Positions 20,252 to 37,822 of a stretch of 37,922 nt of DNA are shown here, one piece after another. The stretch is from Alphaproteobacteria bacterium. Its GTDB lineage: Bacteria; Pseudomonadota; Alphaproteobacteria; ATCC43930; CGMCC-115725. The notes under the pieces were generated by a model. It did not search any database, was not told where the DNA came from, and saw nothing but the letters and a program-made list of their open reading frames with translations. A program made the translations under genes and the position numbers. Location: NCBI GenBank assembly GCA_030041385.1, contig JASHNY010000070.1, positions 1 through 37,922 on the forward strand, given 5' to 3'. The first letter of the stretch is position 1; every line of letters starts with the position of its first letter.

Positions 20252-21504
20252 TGGCGCAGCTCAGCGACGACTGCTTCGCCTTCGGCGGCGAACTGCTCGG
20301 CGTCGACGCCGCGCTGAAGCTGATCGAAGGCCGGCTCGCGCCGGTGGTGGAGACCGAGGCGGTACGGCTGACCGAGGCGGCGGGCCGTATTCTCGCCGCC
20401 GACCGCATCGCTGAGTTCGACCTGCCGCCACACGCCAACAGCGCGGTCGATGGCTATGCACTCGCCTATGCCGATCTCGCGCCCGGCGCCGACACGGTGT
20501 TGCCGATCGGCGGCCGGGCTGCGGCGGGCCATCCGCTCGGCCGCGCGTTGCGCCGCGGCGAGGCGATCCGCATCTTCACCGGTGCGGCCATGCCGGACGG
20601 CGCCGATACCGTGATGATGCAGGAGGATTGCACGGTCGAAGGCGATTGCGTGCGGCTGAAGCCGGGGTTGAAGCCCGGCGCGAACCGCCGCCACGCCGGC
20701 GAAGACGCGGCCAAGGGCGCCGTCGTGCTCAAGGCGGGGCGACGGCTCCGGCCCGCCGATCTCGGACTTCTCGCTGCGCTCGGCCATACTCAGCTGAGGG
20801 TGTTCCGGCGGCTGCGCGTTGCGGTGCTGTCGACCGGCGACGAGGTGGTCGAACACGGCGCACCCTTGGCGCCCGGCAAAATCTACGACGCCAACCGGGT
20901 CATGCTGCTGGCCCTGTTGGGCGGGTTGGGCTGCATCGTCACCGATCTCGGCATCTGCCCCGACCGCGAGGCCGCGCTTGCCGATATCCTCGGCGAGGCG
21001 GCGCGCACGCACGACCTGATCGTGACCTCGGGCGGGGTTTCGACCGGCGAGGAAGACCACGTTCGCAGCGCCATCGAGCGGCTCGGCCGCTTGCATTTCT
21101 GGCGGCTCGCGATCAAGCCGGGCCGTCCGGTGGCGCTCGGCCAGGTCGGCGGCGTGCCGCTCGTGGGGTTGCCCGGCAACCCGGTCGCCGCGGCACTGAC
21201 CTTTGCGATCCTCGCCCGGCCCTTGATCCTGCGGCTCGCCGGTGCGATCGAGCCGGCGCCGCAGGCGTTCCCGGTGCAGGCCGCATTCGCCTACAGGAAG
21301 CGCGCCGGCCGCCGCGAATATGTCCGCGCGACACTCGGCCGCGATGGCGGCAAGCTCGTCGCGCACAAATATCCCAAAGACGGCGCCGGCATCTTGTCGT
21401 CGATCGTCAATTCCGACGGCTTTGCGATCGTCGGCGAAGGGGTCACCACCCTGGCGCCGGGCGATGCCGTCGATTTCCTGCCCTTTGCCGAAGTGTTCGG
21501 ATGA
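20251..21504 (+). CDS. moeA: Molybdopterin molybdenumtransferase MoeA
   Basis: 417 residues starting at ATG 20251 inside the mobB stop. MoeA inserts molybdate into adenylylated molybdopterin. Visible blocks are AEFDLPPHANSAVDGYALAY, IFTGAAMPDGADTVMMQEDC, VLSTGDEVVEHGAPLAPGKI, LIVTSGGVSTGEEDHVR and GLPGNPVAAALTF, in the normal order for domains I-IV. The C-terminal domain IV is complete (AGILSSIVNSDGFAIVGEG). The last four bases overlap the moaD start (ATGA). Position in the uvrC-pgsA-mobB-moeA-moaD-moaE run indicates a molybdenum cofactor operon. Confidence 0.96.
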   Translation: MAQLSDDCFAFGGELLGVDAALKLIEGRLAPVVETEAVRLTEAAGRILAADRIAEFDLPPHANSAVDGYALAYADLAPGADTVLPIGGRAAAGHPLGRALRRGEAIRIFTGAAMPDGADTVMMQEDCTVEGDCVRLKPGLKPGANRRHAGEDAAKGAVVLKAGRRLRPADLGLLAALGHTQLRVFRRLRVAVLSTGDEVVEHGAPLAPGKIYDANRVMLLALLGGLGCIVTDLGICPDREAALADILGEAARTHDLIVTSGGVSTGEEDHVRSAIERLGRLHFWRLAIKPGRPVALGQVGGVPLVGLPGNPVAAALTFAILARPLILRLAGAIEPAPQAFPVQAAFAYRKRAGRREYVRATLGRDGGKLVAHKYPKDGAGILSSIVNSDGFAIVGEGVTTLAPGDAVDFLPFAEVFG

Positions 21505-21758
21505 GCGTGCAACTCCTGTATTTCGCCTGGCTGCGGGCGCGGATCGGGCGCGGCGAAGAAGAGCTGGAACTGCCGCCGGCGGTACGCGACGTGGCCGGAT
21601 TGCTCGAATTCCTGCGATCGCGCGGCGGCCGCTATGCCGAGGCGCTGGCCGATCTGTCGGTGGTCAGGGTCGCGGTCAACCAGGATTACGTCGAGCGCGA
21701 CCACCCGGTGCGCGGCGGCGACGAGGTCGCGATCTTTCCGCCGGTGACCGGCGGATAG
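21501..21758 (+). CDS. moaD: Molybdopterin synthase sulfur carrier subunit MoaD
   Basis: 85 residues with ubiquitin-like fold pattern and the essential C-terminal Gly-Gly (FPPVTGG), which carries the thiocarboxylate that donates sulfur to precursor Z. LLYFAWLRARIGRGEEELEL is the normal start; VAVNQDYVERDHPVRGGDEV matches the MoaD core. The ATG overlaps the moeA stop by four bases. moaE, its partner subunit, would originally have started a few bases after this stop but is now separated by a palindromic insertion (21760-21884). Confidence 0.95.
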   Translation: MSVQLLYFAWLRARIGRGEEELELPPAVRDVAGLLEFLRSRGGRYAEALADLSVVRVAVNQDYVERDHPVRGGDEVAIFPPVTGG

Positions 21759-21759
21759 G

Positions 21760-21884
21760 GCGATGATCCGGGTGTTTCTGCTCCGCGGCGTCATCCCCGG
21801 ACCTGATCCGGGGGTCCGCAAGGTTGCCGGGGCAAGCCCGGCAATGACGAAAGGAAAGGGGCGCACCGTGCGATGATCCGGGTG
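21760..21884. repeat. Palindromic element flanked by 15-bp direct repeat
   Basis: GCGATGATCCGGGTG occurs at 21760-21774 and again at 21870-21884. The right copy is the moaE start region (ATG ATC CGG GTG). The 95 bases between contain a cruciform-like palindrome, CGTCAT (21789-21794) to ATGACG (21844-21849), with two internal hairpins (CCCCGGA...TCCGGGG and TTGCCGGG...CCCGGCAA). The layout looks like insertion of a small palindromic element into the moaD-moaE junction with target duplication. The right side brought a new purine-rich ribosome site for moaE. Confidence 0.75.
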
Positions 21885-22331
21885 CAGCGCGAGGATTTCG
21901 ACATCGGCGCCGAGCTCGACCGCCTCGCCGCCGGCAACCCCCGCATCGGCGGCATTGCCAGCTTTGTCGGGTTGGTGCGCGACTTCAATCTCGAGGCGGG
22001 CGGCGACGACCGCGTATCGGCGCTGACCCTCGAACACTACCCCGGCATGACCGAAAAGAAATTGGCCGAGATCGAGGCCGAGGCACACCGTCGCTGGCCG
22101 CTCGATGCGGCGCTGATCATCCACCGCTACGGCCGTCTCGAACCTGGCGACCGCATCGTCCTCGTCGCGACCGCCTCGCCGCATCGCGAGGCCGCGCTCG
22201 CCGCCTGCCATTTTCTTATAGACTGGCTCAAGACCGACGCGCCGTTCTGGAAGAGCGAGGAGACCCCGCGCGGCGAGCGTTGGGTCGAACAGCGCGCCCA
22301 AGACGACGCGGCGCGCAAGGGCTGGCGCTGA
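21873..22331 (+). CDS. moaE: Molybdopterin synthase catalytic subunit MoaE
   Basis: 152 residues. With MoaD it forms molybdopterin synthase, which adds the dithiolene sulfurs to cyclic pyranopterin monophosphate. Conserved parts are GGIASFVGLVRDFN, LTLEHYPGMTEKKL, HRYGRLEPGD, and the active-site lysines Lys120 (DWLKTDAPFWK) and Lys127, the positions of Lys119 and Lys126 in E. coli. The start region is duplicated upstream at 21760-21774; translation probably uses AAAGGAAAGGGG upstream of 21873. A hairpin directly follows the stop codon. Confidence 0.95.
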   Translation: MIRVQREDFDIGAELDRLAAGNPRIGGIASFVGLVRDFNLEAGGDDRVSALTLEHYPGMTEKKLAEIEAEAHRRWPLDAALIIHRYGRLEPGDRIVLVATASPHREAALAACHFLIDWLKTDAPFWKSEETPRGERWVEQRAQDDAARKGWR

Positions 22332-25594: not shown

Positions 25595-25677
25595 GTCATT
25601 GCGAGGAGCCGAAGGCGACGCGGCAATCTCGCCGGACAGACACACCATCGAGATCGCTTCGCTGCGCTCGCAATGAC
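25595..25677. repeat. GTCATTGCGAG-type palindromic repeat
   Basis: Perfect 11-bp arms GTCATTGCGAG (25595-25605) and CTCGCAATGAC (25667-25677) enclose 61 bases with further internal pairing (GAAGGCGACGCGG...; GAGATCGCTTCGCTGCGCTC). This type of repeat is widespread between genes in alphaproteobacterial genomes. Here it lies between the convergent msrP and phosphonopyruvate-hydrolase-like genes and could act as a bidirectional terminator or mRNA stabiliser. Confidence 0.75.
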
Positions 25678-37773: not shown

Positions 37774-37822
37774 GTCATCCCGGCGCAAGCCGGGACCCAT
37801 GTCGGGCCTCCGCCGGGATGAC
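37774..37822. repeat. GTCATCCCGGCG palindrome
   Basis: Perfect 12-bp arms GTCATCCCGGCG (37774-37785) and CGCCGGGATGAC (37811-37822) around 25 bases; an inner hairpin CCCGGC-gcaa-GCCGGG partly competes. It is the fourth GTCAT...ATGAC element of the window, here between divergent genes. Confidence 0.75.

Follow-up and report, generated by a model that had tools for sequence, protein, structure and literature searches.

A CGTC-type REP dimer flanked by a 15-bp target duplication at the moaD-moaE junction of an alphaproteobacterial genome

CGTC REPs predominate in Alphaproteobacteria and are found mostly as head-to-head (HH) dimers with the tags outside, an arrangement defined in the GTAG section of the same paper, with stems of 8-9 bp and loops of 4-5 bases (Di Nocera, De Gregorio and Rocco, 2013; PMC3733652). 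According to that paper, CGTC REPs have neither a dedicated transposase nor an association with transposase genes, and their mode of movement is left open. Among other described systems, MITEs are short, non-coding, inverted-repeat elements, and direct repeats are described in general terms around the young ones (PMC10969869). Target duplications of 16-28 bp are documented for the IS1202 family (PMC10132070). The reverse case, in which REPs are the targets of insertion sequences, is also described (PMC1525189). The accessible portion of PMC12306157 mentions neither duplication, transposition nor RAYT, and our literature search, made on titles and abstract openings with few subscription papers covered, returned no report of target duplications for CGTC REPs.

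From our analysis of the window (the whole stretch of 37,922 nucleotides, the parts described at moaD-moaE being on its plus strand), the element between moaD and moaE is, by its sequence features, a CGTC-type head-to-head REP dimer. The preliminary description had regarded all 95 bp between the repeat copies as palindromic, which was too generous: the inverted-repeat core is only 61 bp (21789-21849), with a score of 74.6 bits over 21789-21850 under our covariance model (R1) and covariation in an 18-copy alignment, and is bordered by a left tail of 14 bp (TTTCTGCTCCGCGG, 21775-21788) and a right tail of 20 bp (AAAGGAAAGGGGCGCACCGT, 21850-21869) which, by reading, are non-complementary. Within the core, an outer stem (CGTCAT/ATGACG) encloses two hairpins, at 21795-21813 (CCCCGGACCTGATCCGGGG; helix 2, columns 7-25 of alignment A1) and 21825-21843 (TGCCGGGGCAAGCCCGGCA; helix 4, columns 58-76 of A1), each with 98.4% of cells paired. 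The CGTC tag stands at the outer end of each unit (CGTCAT at 21789, ATGACG ending at 21849). By reading, the first stem (ATCCCCGGA/TCCGGGGGT) has the loop CCTGA and one wobble, and the second (ATTGCCGGG/CCCGGCAAC) has the loop CTTGC and one mismatch at the first pair; the stems of 8-9 bp, AT in the first two positions and loops of 4-5 bases that define CGTC REPs are all present. The units are followed by CCG and CTT, both inside the dimer; in CGTC REPs a short unpaired tail, mostly CCA, stands after each unit. In 18 chosen copies, standard pairs filled 96.5% of 432 pair cells and 7 of the 24 pairs had changes on both sides, the structure having been derived from the same 18 sequences in which pairing was counted. 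RNA folding of a 151-nt stretch was no better than shuffles (z -0.77), and a search for known RNAs over 21500-22200 gave only SorX, below threshold (18.3 bits vs 46.6 needed).

The covariance model of the core gave at least 125 strand-wise matches at E <=1 in the own genome (150 of 6086 first-look candidates scored), a high copy number like that of CGTC-REP HH dimers, and matches in all 11 relatives searched (150 first-look candidates scored per genome). Strand-wise matches were numerous in G001 (at least 139) and G005 (at least 88) and few in G029 (14) and G035 (7). The element resembles the published CGTC HH dimers in its head-to-head arrangement with outer CGTC tags, in the AT that adjoins each tag, in stem length (8-9 bp) and loop length (5 bases), and in having an alphaproteobacterial host and many copies. 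It differs in its target duplication and its purine- and pyrimidine-rich outer ends, neither of which is mentioned in the main text of that paper, nor are direct repeats or empty sites (PMC3733652). Two more GTCAT...ATGAC dimers, of different sequence types, lie in the window at 25595-25677 and 37774-37822, and no flanking duplication was seen around them by eye.

The direct repeat GCGATGATCCGGGTG is exact at 21760-21774 and 21870-21884, with 95 bp between the copies, as the preliminary description had it. Upstream lies moaD (21501-21758; ThiS/MoaD-like, Pfam ThiS family E 2.4e-19), with the GG end of its relatives and the stop TAG at 21756-21758; the left copy follows this stop and holds a non-functional duplicate of the moaE start. 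The right copy is the functional moaE start, aligned with that of 29 relatives, and belongs to a gene of 152 codons (21873-22331; Pfam MoaE family E 2.5e-37). The two genes were also rightly described as tightly spaced once the element and one copy are removed, only four bases (GGCG) then separating the moaD TAG from the moaE ATG; the same GGCG spacer follows the moaD stop in two relatives (L021 and L023). We then read the junction in relatives, the comparison which had been proposed as the check for an empty site. Of 61 genomes, 49 (counting the own one) have MoaE, and at the best 30 places (the own genome and 29 relatives) the moaD-moaE distance was -4 to 18 bp in 29 of 29 relatives vs 114 bp in the own genome. 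Since every relative read has a tight junction, the site was once empty, and the repeat arose by duplication of the target. Among 80 loci from named genomes, 63 were readable by rule, with a gap of at most 20 bp in 50 and a larger one in 13; one of these, L076, is G007 again.

A chance match or independent feature in an ancestrally long moaD-moaE gap is hardly credible. The absence of a recognisable repeat from the great majority of copies would agree with such a coincidence; against it, the insert is missing from all 29 relatives read, the repeat coincides with the start of moaE, and other junctions have the same arrangement. Moreover, an exact 15-mer was common to random 60-mer pairs of the window in just 22 of ~200000 draws, and the longest match between mispaired flanks of other copies was 11 bp among 7568 pairs of 50-bp flanks and 13 bp among 2548 pairs of 60-bp flanks. 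Inserts near these genes were also met elsewhere. In another alphaproteobacterial MAG (L092, ~1380-1500), a different palindromic dimer (GTCATCCCGAGCGCAGCGAGGGATC...) inserted independently into the moaD-moaE junction (gap 118 bp), and inspection by eye showed no clear duplication around it; in a betaproteobacterium (L145, ~1940-2035) a CGTC-like dimer lies just 3' of moaE with AACCTTGAC on both sides, perhaps a target duplication.

The insert, its target duplication and the empty form in relatives are plain from the assembled sequence; that the genomes are fragmented assemblies counts against the reading that follows. We consider it probable that the CGTC-REP dimer and its tails form a non-autonomous mobile unit, which inserted at the moaE start by a staggered double-strand cut and fill-in. 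The dimer would move with its short tails, the staggered cut would fall just inside the moaE start, and gap filling would copy 15 bp of the target on both sides of the dimer. Because the duplication leaves moaD and moaE both whole, moaD keeping its end and moaE its complete start, the insertion could persist. A transposase supplied in trans would be our first choice and the most likely agent, since the ends of the unit, if degenerate, are defined; that no transposase is linked to CGTC REPs counts against this reading (PMC3733652).

The preliminary description had proposed that the GTCAT...ATGAC repeats of this genome can insert with a long target duplication, and had suggested a search for direct repeats around the other copies. 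We examined the flanks of 206 copies from 10 genomes (40 from the own genome, the others from G001, G002, G004-G007, G022, G025 and G029), a sample of mainly better-scoring sites and a subset of all copies. Exact direct repeats of at least 10 bp between the 50-bp flanks were found in 6 of 206 vs 0.41 expected from 7568 mispaired flanks within genomes, and of at least 9 bp in 8 of 206 vs 1.52 expected from mispaired flanks. These eight include moaD-moaE (15 bp), own L049 (9 bp), G001 L259 (10 bp) and G001 L454 (17 bp exact, ~26 bp with mismatches and a gap). Two other rows belong to L236, a 9-bp repeat in L243 is placed 34 and 36 bp out, and an 11-bp repeat in L428 is a match in the outer ends of a longer element; the six repeats of at least 10 bp thus comprise three at gene junctions, two from a tandem copy of the element and one inside a longer element. 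The L236 repeats were rejected as target duplications, the dimer and its surroundings (G000:C171:20875-21105) being present twice in tandem with a 141-bp spacing, and a 16-bp repeat in L172 was rejected as part of a tandem array.

A convincing duplication at a gene junction is seen in only 4 of the 206 copies, which counts against a mobile unit, and a recognisable flanking duplication is absent from the great majority. The proposal thus stands for moaD-moaE, for three more of the 206 copies, all at operon junctions, and for one dimer of a second family; it does not extend to most copies or to a fixed length. Because the duplications measure 8, 9, 10, 15 and ~26 bp across the five cases, 15 bp is no signature. 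We also rejected a fixed repeat geometry at the tail ends: exact repeats of at least 7 bp beginning 9-13 bp out on the left and 8-13 bp on the right were present in 4 of 206 copies vs 0.54 expected, and two of the four had suggested the range. At seven places of a second CGTC pattern in the own genome, no clear duplication was seen by eye.

The three further duplications lie between genes which, from reading their translations, we take to be trpB and trpA (own L049), acoB-like and acoC-like (G001 L259), and guaB and rsmB (G001 L454), and each duplication (9 bp, 10 bp and ~26 bp imperfect) holds the start of the downstream gene. At trpB-trpA, the gap was at most 20 bp in 20 of 28 rows and the start overlapped the upstream stop in 25 of 28, own included (28 of 30 fetched loci used, insert-bearing rows counted), so this junction is overlapping by descent. 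At the other two junctions tight forms exist, yet other inserts are present in many relatives. Insert-bearing rows included, guaB-rsmB had a gap of at most 20 bp in 8 of 24 rows and an overlapping start in 14 of 24 (24 of 30 loci used), and acoB-acoC had the former in 4 and the latter in 5 of 9 readable rows (10 of 30 loci used, the remainder being distant relatives). The guaB-rsmB junction of the own genome, met via an rsmB search and not via the repeat search, carries a dimer of another CGTC family with the 8-bp GTGACCCC on both sides. In G005, the acoB-acoC junction (L347) holds an other-family CGTC dimer without clear duplication (best exact match 5 bp), which counts against a mobile unit. 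Most other inserts at the three junctions have a repeat of just 4-6 bp, except L319 and L515 (8 bp) and L510 (7 bp). Several other repeat kinds were seen at guaB-rsmB in different genera (L508, L510, L514, L515, L520, L521, L522), and with such variety this junction resembles a tolerant landing site.

These five cases are rare evidence of how CGTC REPs move and indicate that insertion of the repeats is a double-strand event which duplicates the target. Tight operon junctions are, in this sense, traps: each copy of the duplication adjoins a gene that has to stay intact, so that the duplication remains visible. The duplications in turn reveal the limits of the inserted unit.

These limits are loose and lie about 11 bp outside the CGTC, the left end being rich in pyrimidines and the right end in purines. 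In 91 non-redundant copies, taken from the first 107, the positions 5-11 bases out from the CGTC were 72% pyrimidine in the left flank vs 50% further out and 75% purine in the right flank vs 51% further out; at least five of the seven positions were of the favoured kind on both sides in 48% of copies, about the expectation under independence. In 202 copies, of which 30 lacked a clear orientation, the bias was present whether the neighbouring genes were co-directional, convergent or divergent, so it is no ribosome-binding signal; a Shine-Dalgarno effect was rejected, as the bias is seen between convergent genes and on both sides. It stops near 11 bases, and two of the duplications start at just this distance, that of L049 at 11 bases on the left and 10 on the right and that of L259 at 11 on each side. 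The others start elsewhere: at 14 and 20 bases in moaD-moaE, at 7 and 20 in L454, and, counted from GTCAT/ATGAC, at 3 and 21 in the guaB-rsmB junction of the own genome. Hidden terminal repeats in the form of complementary tails were rejected by permutation (3.86 of 12 vs 3.79 permuted). Like the duplication lengths, tail lengths vary (from 3 to 14 on the left and 10 to 21 on the right), unlike a classical transposon, which counts against a mobile unit.

The strongest point in favour of break repair or template switching is this variation in the lengths of duplications and tails. A REP-bearing fragment and some of its flanks would then have been copied in where a fork had stalled or a break had left long overhangs, the duplication being a filled overhang or a polymerase back-step and a transposase being unnecessary. 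The spread from 8 to ~26 bp and the uneven tails fit such an origin, as do the other repeat kinds found at these junctions, a few of which bear slight signs of duplication (8 bp in L319, 7 bp in L510). We nevertheless regard it as unlikely, for a tail bias that breaks off near 11 bp suggests a unit with defined limits, and the own genome offers no matching donor: none of 42 matches (40 of 59 first-look candidates scored) had matching tails, and the best other match, 77% over 73 bases, spanned the core and only some of the right tail. Such donors may since have diverged, or the assembly may lack them; their absence counts against a mobile unit as well.

Another route would be movement of the dimer by a single-strand RAYT or IS200-like tyrosine transposase. 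RAYT-type single-strand transposition is not known to leave a target duplication, which disfavours this route, and we hold it to be very improbable. The element carries the tag CGTC and not the GTAG of RAYT-mobilised REPINs, and its target duplication is unexpected from single-strand transposition. What speaks for the route is the overall likeness of CGTC and GTAG repeats, GTAG REPs being those for which RAYT mobilisation is proposed. Like REPINs and GTAG REPs, the element is an inverted palindrome dimer with tags outside, dispersed between genes. Against the route, the same paper found no tyrosine transposase gene with CGTC units on its flanks (PMC3733652).

The mobile unit with a double-strand cut, which remains our preferred reading, compares in part with MITEs, as the element is short, non-coding and inverted-repeat with flanking direct repeats, and differs in having no sharp terminal inverted repeat at the junctions, no known parent insertion sequence and no fixed duplication length (PMC10969869). 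At moaD-moaE, tails of 14 and 20 bp separate the inverted repeat from the duplications, and direct repeats of the MITE kind flank this element, three more of the 206 copies and one second-family dimer, most copies being without them. The IS1202 group, compared by description only, shares the unusually long target duplications; its members are elements of ~1.5 kb (ISAjo2 type) with terminal repeats of 24-26 bp, unlike the dimer (PMC10132070).

The insertion was further described as having replaced the moaE ribosome site, of which loss of the old ribosome-binding context is plausible only, judging from the sequence. The moaD end reads GGAGG in most relatives read and GGCGG here, now ~115 bp from the moaE ATG, and in the right tail, which has a candidate ribosome-binding stretch (21851-21861), AAGGAAAGGGG ends 11 nt before the moaE ATG. 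The duplicated ATG at 21763 opens a possible relay ORF of 37 codons (21763-21876), open throughout, without a Pfam match, and closed by a TGA overlapping the moaE ATG; its end lies 4 nt beyond the first base of that ATG. Of 15 junctions with an insert (four gene pairs), 12 have a start-to-start distance of 2 (mod 3), so the duplicated start could open such an ORF, and it is fully open in 8 of the 15, moaD-moaE included. We tentatively suggest, as a possibility that is on balance doubtful, that junction insertions may persist when the target duplication rebuilds translational coupling via a relay ORF across the insert. Ribosomes leaving the upstream gene would read the relay ORF, stop at the TGA overlapping the true start and pass to the downstream gene. 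The moaD-moaE junction has a 4-bp gap and not an overlap. At acoB-acoC the relay ORF halts after three codons, which counts against a relay, as does the partial relatedness of the rows by descent.

The relay idea was formed on the first five junctions, all of which (5/5) are at 2 (mod 3). The other ten gave 7/10 (~0.02 by hand for at least 7 at one third) and may contain shared insertions (G005 with G006, G008 with G018, G011 with G012), and the p value of 2.9e-4 for 12/15 treats all 15 junctions as independent. Not among the 15 are rows in which no start codon overlaps the upstream stop (e.g., L347, L348, L349, L352, L514, L524), rows that lack a start codon where the alignment places the start (L320, L334, L342) and those that carry no insert. 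When co-directional copies were scanned without an orthologue check, an upstream stop was found in 106, of which 29 had a start overlapping the stop; the relay was in the expected frame in 6 of these 29 and in the other frames in 5 and 4, with no clear enrichment, and a general enrichment over co-directional copies was rejected. The remaining 77 copies had it in the expected frame in 12 and in the other frames in 8 and 8. The insert-bearing junctions are a testable case for relay ORFs coupling neighbour genes across an insertion.

Several CGTC dimers were found nested in longer elements. In the own genome (L185, L188, L238, L240, L254) and in G001 (L261, L262, L421, L433, L438), the longer elements carry CTAG at their outer ends or close to them (TAGAGCGTGGTCC... 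in the own genome, TAGTGCACCGACTCAGTC... in G001) and resemble MITEs of an unknown insertion sequence. In G005 (L290-L293, L295), the dimers are nested in a unit with the outer ends ATACCAAGCGCC... and ...CCGGATGGTAT.
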